This document shows, one piece after another, positions 1 through 61,810 of a DNA stretch of 64,000 bases (its first letter is position 1; each line of letters begins with the position of its first letter). Where the stretch lies: positions 62,001 through 126,000 of the forward strand of contig CAJTCU010000007.1 in the NCBI GenBank assembly GCA_910574935.1. Reading direction: 5' to 3'. Made by a program: the position numbers and the translations under genes. The notes under the pieces were generated by a model that saw nothing but the letters and a program-made list of their open reading frames with translations, ran no database searches and had not been told where the DNA came from. This stretch comes from Oscillospiraceae bacterium (GTDB lineage Bacteria; Bacillota; Clostridia; Oscillospirales; Acutalibacteraceae).

Positions 1-111
1 TCCCGGCTTATGTATTATACCGGATTCTTTGTAAAAAATCAAGGGGTTTGAGAAAAAAATTTCCTAATGGTGAAATACCATAAAAAGTCCTCAAAAAAAT
101 GCAATCTATAT

Positions 112-29473: not shown

Positions 29474-30520
29474 CTATTTTAAAGCCCTTCGTAGTTCTTC
29501 CCGAGTAATGGGAGAAATTACACTCTCACCGATCTCTTTAATAAAGATAAACCGCAGCGTGTCGCCGTCACTCTTCTTGTCTAGGGCCGTGGACTCCACT
29601 ATCTCATCGGCACGGAACTGAGTGCTGGTGGGCAAACCATACCGCTCAAGAACCTGAGCAATTCTTTTTCCGGTACCGGATCGAGTTATCCCTAGCCTTT
29701 CTCCGGCTTGACAAGCCAGTACCATACCGATGCCCACCGCCTCGCCGTGTGAAAGCTCCCGGAATTGATGGAGCTTCTCTAGCGCGTGACCGCAGGTGTG
29801 TCCAAAGTTAAGAATCATTCTCCGTCCGGTATCTCGGGTGTCGGCCTCTACAAAATCTCGCTTAATCGACACAGACCGTGCCACCACTTGCTCTATATTG
29901 TCCAGAGCCGCCCCCTGCTCCAAGGACGCGAACAACTCGGGATCAGCAATGCATCCATGCTTAATGACCTCGCCTAAGCCATCGTTAAAGAAATGGTTTG
30001 GTAATGTAGAGAGGGCCGTGGGGTCGCTGATCACCGCAATCGGTTGGTGGAAAGCACCCACCAAATTTTTTCCAAAAGGCAGATCGACACCAGTCTTTCC
30101 CCCTATACTGGCGTCGGCCTGGGCCACCAGGCTGGTAGGCACCTGGATGAAGTCCATCCCTCGCAAAAAAGTGGCCGCCGCAAAGCCGCCCATATCGCCA
30201 GTAACACCGCCCCCCAAAGTAACAATAAGGTCTGTGCGGGTAAAGCCAGACTGAGCCAACGCCATATACATGCTCATAATGGTCTCCATTTTTTTGTTTT
30301 CCTCTCCGGCTGGAAAAACAAAGCGGCTTGTCTCAAAACCAGCAGACTCTAGGGAAGCAAGAACCCTCTGCCCATACAGAGGCATTACGTTGGTTTCTGT
30401 GATTAGCATGGCCTTTGTACCAACTTTTTTCAGTTGAGCTGCAATGGTGCCCACTTGGTCCAAGGACTCGTTCTCTACTGTCACAATGTAGGGCCTTTGG
30501 GTTTTTACCTCTATTTTCAT
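29474..30520 (-). CDS. aroB: 3-dehydroquinate synthase
   Basis: The 348-residue protein is AroB, which cyclises DAHP to 3-dehydroquinate with NAD and a divalent metal. Conserved elements are the NAD-binding GGGVTGDMGGFAAATFLRGM (near 103-122), IQVPTSLVAQADASIGGKTGVD (near 124-145) with the substrate lysine, and the metal ligands in LNFGHTCGHALE (near 243-254) and the histidine of LSHGEAVGIGM. AAGGAG precedes the ATG. It is the third gene after aroF and tyrA, 95 bases after the latter. Confidence 0.95.
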   Translation of the reverse strand: MKIEVKTQRPYIVTVENESLDQVGTIAAQLKKVGTKAMLITETNVMPLYGQRVLASLESAGFETSRFVFPAGEENKKMETIMSMYMALAQSGFTRTDLIVTLGGGVTGDMGGFAAATFLRGMDFIQVPTSLVAQADASIGGKTGVDLPFGKNLVGAFHQPIAVISDPTALSTLPNHFFNDGLGEVIKHGCIADPELFASLEQGAALDNIEQVVARSVSIKRDFVEADTRDTGRRMILNFGHTCGHALEKLHQFRELSHGEAVGIGMVLACQAGERLGITRSGTGKRIAQVLERYGLPTSTQFRADEIVESTALDKKSDGDTLRFIFIKEIGESVISPITREELRRALK

Positions 30521-30615: not shown

Positions 30616-31443
30616 TTATCCGAACTGCTGTTTTACCTCTGCTGCTTTGCGCAGTAACCGTTGCAGTTGTTTTTCGTCGCCATCTGCTACCGCATCCCGA
30701 ATCCTTGTTAAATTATCCCTTAGTAGATCCAGTTCCTCCACTAGTGCCTCCTGATTGTCTAAAAACAGCCGGCTCCATAGAACATCGTTGATATTCGCCA
30801 CCCGGGAAACATCCCGATAGCTGCCTGCGGAAAACCCTTTATGCCCTGGACATTGGGGGCTCATTACATAACCACAGGCCAGGGCATGGGGTACCTGGGA
30901 GGTAAATGCGATCATTTGGTCATGCCGCTGGGCAGTGGTATGCTCTATATGGCCAAAGCCCATAGCAGCCGCCAGAGTTTCCACTCGCTCTACAGCCCAA
31001 TCCGGTGCGCCTGTCTCCACCAATATATAGGAGGCTCCCACAAAAATACTGGGATCACTGAACGCAAACCCACTTCGCTCTTTTCCTGCCATGGGATGTC
31101 CTGCCACAAAAGTGTACCGGATTCCTCTGGCCAGCCGTGCTATGCCCTGACAGACCACCGTCTTTACTCCACAGGTATCTGTAAGCACACAGCCCTCCTT
31201 CAGCAAAGGGCCGTATACCTCTGCAAACTCCAAAACGGCCCGCGGGTATACGCACAGGTATACCACATCCGCAGTTTTCAAGTCCTCCATTCCTGCCTTG
31301 CCGTCGATGGCGCCACAGGAGCAGGCATCCAGCAATGACTCCTCATGGGTATCCATGCCCAGTACGCAATGCCCCGTGTTCTGCTTCAATGACTTAGCAA
31401 TAGATCCGCCAATTAGCCCCAGCCCTACAACGACAACTTTCAT
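30616..31443 (-). CDS. tyrA: Prephenate dehydrogenase
   Basis: The 275-residue product is a TyrA-type dehydrogenase forming 4-hydroxyphenylpyruvate for tyrosine synthesis. The Rossmann glycine loop VVGLGLIGGS is near residues 5-14. The region VAGHPMAGKERSGF (near 129-142) holds the conserved active-site histidine segment, and FTSQVPHALA is near 193. No C-terminal ACT domain is present, so it is the short form. The open frame runs seven codons further up, but ATG 31443 overlaps the aroF stop as ATGA, giving coupling. Confidence 0.93.
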   Translation of the reverse strand: MKVVVVGLGLIGGSIAKSLKQNTGHCVLGMDTHEESLLDACSCGAIDGKAGMEDLKTADVVYLCVYPRAVLEFAEVYGPLLKEGCVLTDTCGVKTVVCQGIARLARGIRYTFVAGHPMAGKERSGFAFSDPSIFVGASYILVETGAPDWAVERVETLAAAMGFGHIEHTTAQRHDQMIAFTSQVPHALACGYVMSPQCPGHKGFSAGSYRDVSRVANINDVLWSRLFLDNQEALVEELDLLRDNLTRIRDAVADGDEKQLQRLLRKAAEVKQQFG

Positions 31444-32453
31444 AGGGCATGTACCGCATTCCATACCCGGCCTACCTTTTTAGCCAGGCTGTCAAACTGA
31501 GCTGGAGTAATAGACTGTGCTCCATCGCAAAGGGCGTGGCTAGGGTCATTGTGGACCTCAATAATTAATCCATCGGCCCCAATGGCGGCAGCTGAAATGG
31601 CCAAAGGCTCGATCAACCAGTTAACGCCGCTGGCATGGCTGGGGTCCACTACAACAGGCAGATGAGAAAGACGCTTAATTACCGGAACGGCGGAAATATC
31701 CAGGGTATTCCGGGTCATAGTCTCATAGGTACGAATGCCCCGTTCGCAAAGAATAACCTGTTCGTTTCCCCCAGCCATGATATATTCTGCACTCATTAAT
31801 AGTTCCTCAATAGTATTAGCAAGGCCCCGCTTTAGCAGGATGGGCTTATCTATTCGTCCTAACTGCTTGAGCAGTTCAAAATTTTGCATGTTCCTGGCCC
31901 CTACTTGAATAATATCCACATCGTCAAACAGGGACAGATGCTCAATACTCATAATCTCGGTGACAATGGGCAGCCCCGTCTTTTTCTTTGCTTCCGAAAG
32001 CAGCTCCAGGCCCTCGGCCTTCATACCTTGAAAGGCATAGGGCGAAGTGCGGGGCTTGAAAGCACCTCCCCGCAGGAAAGCAGCTCCAGAGGCCTTGACG
32101 CTTTCCGCTATGCCGCAGATCTGCGCTTCGCTCTCCACCGAGCAAGGCCCAGCGATCAGTGTCAGGCCTCCCCCGCCAATCTGCTGTCCCCCTGGCAATG
32201 TAACCGCAGTATCCTCTGGATGAAATTTTCTATTGGCCTTTTTATAGGGCTCCTGTACCCGGCGTACGGCCTCCACCACATCTTGGGCGGCAATGTATTC
32301 ATCATCTATCACGGTAGTATCTCCAATAAGCCCTAGTACCGTGCTGTGCGCGCCTACCCAGGTATTAACGGTCACATCGTAACGGCTGGTCAGCTTTTTC
32401 ATAAAGTCATCCACTTTTTCTTGAAGTTGGTTGGGCTTGAGTACAATAATCAT
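31440..32453 (-). CDS. aroF: DAHP synthase (3-deoxy-7-phosphoheptulonate synthase), type Ib
   Basis: This 337-residue enzyme commits PEP and erythrose 4-phosphate to aromatic synthesis. It has the N-terminal ferredoxin-like regulatory domain of the Thermotoga type (MIIVLKPNQLQEKVDDFMKKL) and the KDO8P/DAHP barrel (LIAGPCSVES near 105; GAFKPRTSPYAFQG near 130; VVDPSHASG near 273). No chorismate mutase domain is fused. ATG 32453 has AGGAG at the right distance. The reading frame stays open upstream through the terminator to a stop at 32627, which is probably fortuitous. It is the first structural gene behind the leader peptide and attenuator. Confidence 0.93.
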   Translation of the reverse strand: MIIVLKPNQLQEKVDDFMKKLTSRYDVTVNTWVGAHSTVLGLIGDTTVIDDEYIAAQDVVEAVRRVQEPYKKANRKFHPEDTAVTLPGGQQIGGGGLTLIAGPCSVESEAQICGIAESVKASGAAFLRGGAFKPRTSPYAFQGMKAEGLELLSEAKKKTGLPIVTEIMSIEHLSLFDDVDIIQVGARNMQNFELLKQLGRIDKPILLKRGLANTIEELLMSAEYIMAGGNEQVILCERGIRTYETMTRNTLDISAVPVIKRLSHLPVVVDPSHASGVNWLIEPLAISAAAIGADGLIIEVHNDPSHALCDGAQSITPAQFDSLAKKVGRVWNAVHAL

Positions 32454-32524
32454 ATTCATTCTCCTAACAAAAATTTTTGCAAGATCGGAAACGGTGTTGT
32501 TCAACGTTTTGACAACTCTGAACA

Positions 32525-32551
32525 CAAAAAAGCGGAGCGCCACGGCTCCGC
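32525..32551 (-). terminator. Attenuator terminator in the aroF leader
   Basis: On the minus strand, GCGGAGC (32551-32545) pairs perfectly with GCTCCGC (32538-32532) and is followed by TTTTTTGTG. It lies 72 bases before the aroF start and about 53 bases after the aromatic leader peptide, so it would stop transcription before the structural genes. Its position inside the transcript argues for regulated attenuation rather than end-of-operon termination. Confidence 0.8.
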
Positions 32552-32604
32552 AAATATAAATCTCTATCTTCTTGTCTACTACAGACAGGTCGTAGCAACA
32601 TGGT

Positions 32605-32709
32605 TCAAGAGGAAACGCCGCCGTCTATTCCATTGTACGCACAAAAAACTCGCGCGGTAAATCGCAAGCTAAAATAATAATAAAATCGTTTTGCACGGTA
32701 AATAGCCAT
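32605..32709 (-). CDS. Aromatic leader peptide of the aroF operon
   Basis: This small gene encodes 34 residues with nine aromatic ones: Tyr at 4, 10, 11, 12 and 25 and Phe at 9, 13, 17 and 22, including the run RFYYYF. GAAAGGA lies upstream of the ATG, and the consensus promoter is 46 bases before it. The peptide stop (TGA, 32605-32607) precedes an intrinsic terminator. Its layout matches ribosome-mediated attenuation leaders such as pheA or trp leaders, where stalling at aromatic codons favours an antiterminator. The coding frame and aromatic run are seen; the mechanism is inferred. I do not know of this peptide having been described in this organism. Confidence 0.75.
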   Translation of the reverse strand: MAIYRAKRFYYYFSLRFTARVFCAYNGIDGGVSS

Positions 32710-32754
32710 AGACAGAGATGTCCTTTCTATGCAATATCTTTATCTTTGAATTTC

Positions 32755-32783
32755 ATTTTATCTCAAATGTACTGTCTTGTCAA
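32755..32783 (-). promoter_or_regulatory. SigA-type promoter of the aroF operon
   Basis: On the minus strand, TTGACA (32783-32778) and TAAAAT (32760-32755) are separated by 17 bases. Transcription would start near 32748, giving a leader of about 295 bases before aroF. The -35 box begins nine bases past the aroK stop codon. Confidence 0.85.
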
Positions 32784-32791
32784 GTGCTTTT

Positions 32792-33325
32792 TCATTCACC
32801 ATCACTGGTCTGGACCCAGTGCGCATAGGCTGTTTCCACCCGCCGGGCCACTGTTAGAGGCGGAGCACCTGCGTCTACCGTTAGGTCCGCAGCTGTTTGG
32901 TATAAAGGACAACGCTTTTCATGAAGCATAGCAATCACCTGCCGCCGGTCCGGCACTTGCAGCAGTGGACGTCGCTTGTCCCGCTTTAGACGTTCCTGGA
33001 GCGCAGCTAGGGGAACATCCAAAAAAATAATGACTCCGCCTTTTTCGTGAAAGGCCTCCACATTCTTTTCGGCCAGTACCGTACCCCCGCCACTGGCAAT
33101 AATCTGCTGCTTTTTTTCTGCGATTTCTCGCACAGCCTGGGTCTCCCGCCAACGAAAACCGTCTTCACCATATTTTGCAAAAATCTCCGAGACTGTCATG
33201 CCCTCCCGGGCCTCAATGTACTGGTCCAAATCGCAAAATTCCCGTTCCATTAGTTTTGCCAGCCACCGGCCCACACTGGTCTTTCCGCAGCCCATAAAGC
33301 CGCAGAGGATGATATTTCCACTCAT
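32792..33325 (-). CDS. aroK: Shikimate kinase
   Basis: The 177-residue kinase phosphorylates shikimate at O3. The P-loop is GFMGCGKTS (9-17), the substrate-binding aspartate/arginine segment includes DLDQYIEAREG (near 33-43) and GFRWRETQAV (near 56-65), and the Walker-B-like glycine motif is ASGGGTVLAE (near 77-86). The ATG overlaps the aroE stop by four bases. It ends just before the aroF promoter, so aroE-aroK form their own transcript upstream of the attenuated operon. Confidence 0.94.
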   Translation of the reverse strand: MSGNIILCGFMGCGKTSVGRWLAKLMEREFCDLDQYIEAREGMTVSEIFAKYGEDGFRWRETQAVREIAEKKQQIIASGGGTVLAEKNVEAFHEKGGVIIFLDVPLAALQERLKRDKRRPLLQVPDRRQVIAMLHEKRCPLYQTAADLTVDAGAPPLTVARRVETAYAHWVQTSDGE

Positions 33326-61521: not shown

Positions 61522-61804
61522 CACAAAACGCCCTCTGCAAAAGCGCCCCATTGGGCATACTTTTTACAGAGGGCGATAAAATCGCGGTACCACCTCAGTT
61601 TACTGGGACCTCACGGCCACAGCCTCTACGGGTACATCCATACCCTGACAAGTTAACGCCCGTCAAACGGCTTTCCCTACTATCAGATTCAAGAAAGCAA
61701 CTCTGGAAGGTATTTTCGACCGCTACCATGCTCCCGCTTTCACCACCCGCGGGCTCTCTTTGCCATATAAAGCAGCGCCTACTTGCATTCCGTCATTGTC
61801 ATTG
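61522..61804 (-). ncRNA. T-box riboswitch leader, tyrosine specifier
   Basis: Read on the minus strand, the leader has the stem I signatures (GAGAGC, GGTGGTGAAAGC), a specifier region GAAAA-TAC-C with the triplet TAC at 61712-61710 (Tyr) and the conserved T-box core GAGGTGGTACCGCG (61598-61585). An intrinsic terminator GCCCTCTG...CAGAGGGC ends it, followed by GTTTTGTGTT. Uncharged tRNA-Tyr would pair with the specifier and with the T-box bulge to form the antiterminator. The triplet assignment is by position and by tyrS downstream. Confidence 0.92.
61530..61574 (-). terminator. T-box terminator
   Basis: On the minus strand, GCCCTCTG (61574-61567) pairs exactly with CAGAGGGC (61537-61530), with an additional AAAAG/CTTTT extension inside, followed by a T-rich run. 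Alternative pairing with the T-box core gives the antiterminator. Confidence 0.88.
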
Positions 61805-61810
61805 GCAAAC

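Follow-up and report, generated by a model that had tools for sequence, protein, structure and literature searches.

The leader ahead of aroF in a 64,000-nt stretch of Oscillospiraceae DNA (hereafter the window) is conserved among relatives and is very probably a Phe/Tyr leader-peptide attenuator. We consider it, with a probability of about 0.86, a ribosome-mediated transcription attenuator that would sense charged tRNA-Phe and tRNA-Tyr and control aroF-tyrA-aroB. Comparative sequence analysis demonstrated the reading frame, its Phe codons, the promoter and the terminator, together with a terminator-like hairpin within the frame in the genus and, outside the genus, the pairing of an antiterminator strand.

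Organization of the aroF leader and operon

The locus lies on the minus strand, in the order aroE and aroK, promoter, ribosome-binding site (RBS), leader ORF, terminator T2, aroF, tyrA and aroB (Table 1). The promoter, described as perfect in the initial annotation, departs from the consensus at one of 12 positions and is therefore strong rather than perfect. The 34-residue ORF was re-read in the sequence as described there, with nine aromatic residues (four Phe and five Tyr) including RFYYYF, and a terminator scan bore out the intrinsic terminator 72 bases ahead of the aroF ATG (32453). The assignment of the downstream genes as aroF-tyrA-aroB held for aroF and aroB, both above their family cut-offs, whereas the tyrA matches stayed below the curated cut-offs. 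The gene pheA is found elsewhere in the genome, downstream of aroC, and no leader was noticed there when the sequence was inspected. Folding of the whole window leader gave a z-score of -2.57, which is suggestive only. Stems resembling the outer stem P1 were seen by eye in relatives, with shifted registers. The window strand ACGGCGGCGTTT near the ORF stop, the candidate antiterminator, aligns with GGCTGCG of relatives.

Table 1. Features of the aroF leader and operon in the window
Feature	Position	Strand	Basis or remark
Promoter of the leader transcript, sigma-70 type, TTGACA-17 nt-TAAAAT	32755..32783	-	11/12 to consensus
RBS-like GAAAGGA, ending 11 nt 5' of the leader ATG	32721..32727	-	From sequence
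Leader peptide ORF, 34 codons, MAIYRAKRFYYYFSLRFTARVFCAYNGIDGGVSS	32605..32709	-	ORF translation; genus conservation
Putative sensing codons CGA TTT TAT TAT TAT TTT (RFYYYF)	32671..32688	-	Directly 5' of the in-ORF hairpin
Outer stem P1, 5' arm (CGTGCAAAA)	32689..32697	-	Predicted fold
Outer stem P1, 3' arm (TTTTGTGCG), which overlaps the T1 U tract	32638..32646	-	Predicted fold
In-ORF terminator-like hairpin T1, AGCTTGCG-ATTTACCG-CGCGAGTT, then TTTT	32647..32670	-	Genus covariation
Candidate antiterminator strand ACGGCGGCGTTT, close to the ORF stop and able to pair in part with the 5' arm of T2	32613..32624	-	Fold
Intrinsic terminator T2, GCGGAGC-CGTGGC-GCTCCGC-TTTTTT	32526..32551	-	Terminator scan
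aroF, 3-deoxy-7-phosphoheptulonate (DAHP) synthase	31440..32453	-	NF006421, above cut-off
tyrA, prephenate dehydrogenase; start codon uncertain	30616..31464	-	Family matches below curated cut-offs
aroB, 3-dehydroquinate synthase	29474..30520	-	TIGR01357, above cut-off

Conservation of the leader and its hairpin within the genus

The aroF gene is present in all 28 same-genus genomes examined. We aligned 27 genus leaders, comprising the window and those of 26 same-genus genomes; the two left out were L029, which meets a contig end, and L018 (genome G008), which has no recognisable leader between the aroK end and aroF and no match to the leader model genome-wide. A promoter of the form TTGAC[AT]-16..18-TANNNT precedes all 27 leaders, and purine-rich stretches resembling an RBS were seen by eye at about the same place in the alignment. 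The reading frame is open through both RF pairs in 27/27 leaders, with an ATG seven codons 5' of the first pair in 26 of them; in L030, a TTG stands at that start position and an ATG lies further upstream. Indels between the start codon and the in-ORF hairpin are multiples of three, and beyond the hairpin some of the genus ORFs diverge, that of L019 extending to 78 codons. The consensus of the genus leader is approximately KRFxxxFSLRFTARAFxAW. The Phe residues of the first and of the second RF pair are present in 27/27 leaders and the three consecutive Tyr in six, indicating that the signal is aromatic, with Phe as its steadiest residue. Conservation of the aromatic run and its stop, as looked for in the initial annotation, was thus seen at the Phe positions; it was not seen for the Tyr triplet, and the frame past the hairpin is not fully kept. 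The ORF itself is conserved among close relatives, the point on which that annotation had made its proposal depend, and the promoter, Phe codons and frame up to the hairpin shared by the 27 leaders support its reading of a leader-peptide attenuator.

The neighbourhood of the leader is also kept, with a tyrA match 3' of aroF and on its strand in 29/29 genus loci and an aroB match 3' of aroF in 24/29, the stretches being limited in extent. A covariance model of the leader (R1) detected one strong copy per genome, located at aroF, in 27/29 genus genomes (own included). No second leader copy was detected by this model in the own genome and in a set of 60 genomes, 29 of which, with the own one included, belong to the genus, and its matches away from aroF had E values of 0.04 or worse. 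These scans scored part of the first-look candidates (150/1660 in one scan and 70 per genome in the other), and may thus have overlooked a second copy that has diverged.

Analysis of the genus alignment further revealed the in-ORF hairpin T1, which the initial annotation had overlooked and which is possibly a new trait. Its positions pair in 94.9% of alignment cells, and its covariation score is 0.231, compared with 0.169 in shuffled alignments (reached in 0/500), while sliding the partner strand destroys the pairing. Two less decisive measures gave two pairs changed on both sides, equalled by 33/500 shuffles, and 10 further types, equalled by 38/500. No structure besides this hairpin was found by RNAalifold in the genus alignment. 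The terminator signature of T1 (score 14) is present in 27/27 genus leaders versus 31% of synonymous shuffles, with a rank of at most 5% in 16/27. Outside the genus this signature is weak, being present in 58/90 non-genus leaders versus 40% (rank of at most 5% in 11/90) and in 27/40 class leaders versus 45% (4/40). The ORF RNA is more stable than its synonymous codon shuffles, with a mean z of -1.87 in the genus (17/27 at no more than 5/100 shuffles) and of -1.35 among the 90 non-genus leaders (36/90 at this level).

Two CGATTT (Arg-Phe) hexamers of the leader are fixed at the nucleotide level, that at window positions 32688-32683 (minus strand) in 25/27 genus leaders and that at 32664-32659 (minus strand) in 27/27. 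CGA makes up 16 of the 152 Arg codons across nine window genes; rare-codon pacing and contact with the RNA are guesses at what fixes the hexamers. Such fixation despite the modest use of CGA, like the covariation of the in-ORF hairpin, would also fit an RNA sensor, either riboswitch-like or a protein-bound hairpin, for which nucleotide conservation matters and the ORF is incidental. This explanation is improbable, as the genus indels ahead of the hairpin respect the codon triplets, the F/Y-rich frame stays outside the genus where the sequence is mostly gone, and no Rfam family reached the gathering score at the site.

Phe/Tyr-rich leaders, antiterminator pairing and T-boxes beyond the genus

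To cover a broader set of relatives, we screened the 400 nt 5' of aroF at 163 loci, taking as score the count of F, Y and W in 16 residues; L029, L108, L147 and L148 (too short) and L099, L100 and L118 (duplicates) were dropped. A score of at least 8 was reached at 69/163 loci versus 2/163 reverse complements and 10/815 shuffles, and a score of at least 7, that of the window leader itself, at 94/163 loci versus 3/163 and 44/815. F/Y-rich ORFs precede aroF in the family, the order and the class. In an even draw across the class, a set without shuffled control, 45/80 aroF loci reached seven aromatics, and the 40 loci of the class draw reaching eight were spread over 26 of the 41 families sampled. 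Not every aroF carries a leader. The named loci with an F/Y leader include those of Clostridium weizhouense and Sporobacter termitidis. Similar leaders at aroF were also observed in two metagenome-assembled genomes (MAGs) labelled Lentisphaerae and Treponema (L143 and L158), which may be mislabelled or may have received the gene by transfer. The primary sequence is largely lost outside the genus, while the F/Y-rich frame is kept. The leader cores contain 17-24% Phe, 9-19% Tyr and 1-2% Trp overall, and 23-24%, 15-19% and 1-2%, respectively, outside the genus, a composition that points to Phe and Tyr and not to Trp.

Folding and pairing were analysed in 117 leaders, 27 from the genus and 90 from outside it. 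The 90 were chosen because their best ORF had at least seven aromatics in 16 residues or because they were among seven named by hand (four genus peptides were hand-named as well); chance ORFs may be present among them, and the set includes a few near-duplicates (e.g., L063/L064). The other loci of the 163-locus screen lie outside these analyses. A permissive scan without shuffled control placed a terminator-like site in 117/117 leaders and in 40/40 separate class leaders; among the 117, the automatic choice of T2 looks wrong in a few rows (e.g., L020, L013, L017 and L019).

Comparison of the T2 5' arm with the strand near the ORF end revealed, among the 90 non-genus leaders, a mean z of -1.49, with 37/90 at no more than 5/100 shuffles. 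When arms were swapped among these leaders, the summed energy changed from -1381.8 for the own arms to -1035.1 (sd 25.6), and 0/5000 permutations equalled the own arms; shuffles and permutations ignore relatedness. The 40 class leaders gave a mean z of -1.57 (16/40 at no more than 10/200), with -491.2 for own versus -349.6 (sd 15.7) for swapped arms and again 0/5000, and swaps restricted to arms of similar GC gave 0/1000 across 130 leaders. The best-pairing strand ends between -45 and +20 of the ORF end in 71/90 non-genus and 21/27 genus leaders, a count without position control. These comparisons support, outside the genus, a strand at the ORF end that pairs with the T2 5' arm as expected of an antiterminator, and in these relatives the antiterminator/terminator pairing anticipated by the initial annotation was recovered. 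Within the genus, where the sequences are alike, the mean z was -0.41 (1/27 at no more than 5/100 shuffles) and 376/5000 permutations equalled the own arms, which is not significant.

The same relatives allowed the leader peptide to be compared with the T-box. Neither a T-box nor any other Rfam family was detected at the window leader at gathering score, and a permissive Rfam scan returned four sub-threshold, chance-like matches. The T-box scan of relatives covered 60 chosen loci (40 of the 80 class loci and 20 others, mostly leaderless) and, in addition, ten leader-bearing loci. Six of the 60 (L094, L095, L096, L252, L256 and L259) have a T-box upstream of aroF on its strand; their aromatic score is at most 6, with no clear F/Y leader. 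Both sensing systems thus serve aroF in different lineages, and by sequence the sensing system appears to have been exchanged at this one gene among relatives. Control of the window aroF by a T-box, or by some other RNA that reads tRNA, could be considered in view of these six loci and of the eight T-box matches in the window genome, one of them above the Rfam cut-off. It is nevertheless extremely improbable, since RF00230 has no match at 32400-32800, even at a permissive threshold, and none was found in the ten leader-bearing aroF loci of relatives.

Elsewhere in the window, a T-box leader of 109.6 bits occupies 61566-61805 (minus strand), and the next ORF 3' of it resembles acetyltransferases of the GNAT family, with a RimI match that stays under the cut-off. 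On contig C2 of the own genome, a T-box match of 51.3 bits, below the Rfam cut-off, lies 5' of a TrpB-like enzyme (L007:1501-1823). In this genome, some aromatic genes may thus be under a T-box and others under a leader peptide. In one relative, a glmS ribozyme match (L088:639-793, 95.9 bits) lies upstream of aroF on the opposite strand.

Proposed attenuation mechanism and comparison with known systems

For the leader-peptide attenuator, we infer an aminoacyl-tRNA response, a sequence of events and a role for the in-ORF hairpin as follows. When aromatic amino acids are plentiful, the ribosome would reach the leader stop and mask the antiterminator strand just 5' of it, so that T2 could form and transcription would end ahead of aroF. 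When they are scarce, the ribosome would halt at the Phe/Tyr codons with its footprint over the T1 5' arm; the antiterminator strand, left free, would then pair with the T2 5' arm and let the polymerase enter the operon. On a transcript that no ribosome follows, T1 would form and pause or terminate transcription.

We modelled these states by folding with a ribosome footprint. In a refined model of 26/27 genus leaders (L011 left out), the mean value of the antiterminator was 0.46 with the ribosome stalled, 0.18 with the ribosome at the stop codon and 0.32 without a ribosome; stall exceeded stop by more than 0.1 in 13/26 leaders and the reverse held in two. A cruder model, following the fraction of the T2 arm paired upstream, gave 0.68 stalled versus 0.50 at stop for the 90 non-genus leaders (52 favouring stall and 10 the reverse) and 0.76 versus 0.64 for the 27 genus leaders (11 and 4). 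The stop codon of 11/26 genus leaders is 57-171 nt beyond the in-ORF hairpin, and some of these leaders (L012, L024, L025 and L031) retain the antiterminator in the model even when the ribosome has reached the stop. The window antiterminator was weak in the refined model (0.15 at stall, 0.00 at stop and 0.56 without a ribosome), and in the cruder model, where the ribosome was stalled at codon 5, stop came out above stall (0.69 at stall and 0.84 at stop). The scheme is therefore well supported for the family, and for the window itself we infer it.

The weak modelled antiterminator of the window would suit constitutive partial termination, by which leader and terminator fix a level of expression and sense nothing. 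We give this explanation a slim chance, since the codon enrichment and the antiterminator complementarity are kept across order and class and would be pointless for a fixed terminator. Within the attenuation scheme, T1 and T2 may form a pair of terminators, T1 ending ribosome-free transcripts and T2 being bypassed only by a ribosome stalled at Phe/Tyr. This addition is tentative and, on balance, doubtful; it draws on the refined model, in which the mean fraction of T1 pairs falls from 0.78 without a ribosome and 0.81 with the ribosome at the start codon to 0.27 at an aromatic-run stall (26 genus leaders). The window antiterminator can form in that model with no ribosome present (0.56), a case that a check on translation would need to handle. 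If it were true, readthrough would need both translation and aromatic starvation.

In Clostridia, regulation of aromatic amino acid synthesis would be expected to involve T-boxes or TRAP. We found no report of an aromatic leader peptide in Clostridia in the open-licence PMC literature, although older work may exist. In the literature found, as far as the available text of the sources goes, Acholeplasma is the sole case with a predicted uORF at aroF. The available text on this uORFC-13-1 motif describes 24 examples 5' of aroF, in Acholeplasma and in environmental sequences of unknown organisms, with a predicted uORF of at least one Phe codon, a U run and a further predicted stem, directly preceding an apparent intrinsic terminator (PMC8632094). 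Judged by this text description, the window shares with it a uORF with Phe codons that stands before a terminator and 5' of aroF. Among other Firmicutes, the accessible parts of the reports describe an experimentally supported Leu-rich attenuator peptide at the Staphylococcus aureus ilv operon (PMC5794164), predicted His leader peptides at hisS/hisZ in bacilli (PMC2965389), and predicted leader peptides at his operons of the Bacillus cereus group, Eubacteriales and Erysipelotrichales in a 2022 survey of 17 genomes (PMC9413887). The initial annotation had described the aromatic genes of Firmicutes as mostly attributed to T-boxes or TRAP; according to these parts, leader-peptide attenuation is already supported in Firmicutes for ilv and predicted for his. 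The S. aureus case likewise concerns a Firmicute, but its peptide is Leu-rich and it belongs to an ilv-leu operon of another lineage. The His leaders share with the aroF leaders the predicted leader peptide, antiterminator and terminator, with T-boxes in other lineages, but they sense His, and the accessible text contains no aromatic case (PMC2965389, PMC9413887).

The aroF leaders apparently constitute a new, large family of leader-peptide attenuators. Their identification points to a control device for the entry step of aromatic amino acid synthesis in a considerable share of the Clostridia, and many of the named loci come from MAGs of animal guts. T-box and leader peptide would here replace each other at the same gene. 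The leader set also offers very diverse and compact attenuators, in which the sequence has drifted while the codon content and the pairing logic are kept.

Ribosome-mediated attenuators operate in enterobacteria at the trp, pheA and his leaders. The aroF leaders resemble them in having a promoter, a short ORF rich in codons for the end product, an antiterminator, supported outside the genus, and a terminator before the first gene. Unlike them, the aroF leader mixes Phe and Tyr codons, its target is the first shikimate enzyme together with tyrA and aroB, and in the genus its ORF encloses a terminator-like hairpin that shows covariation and has a U tract.
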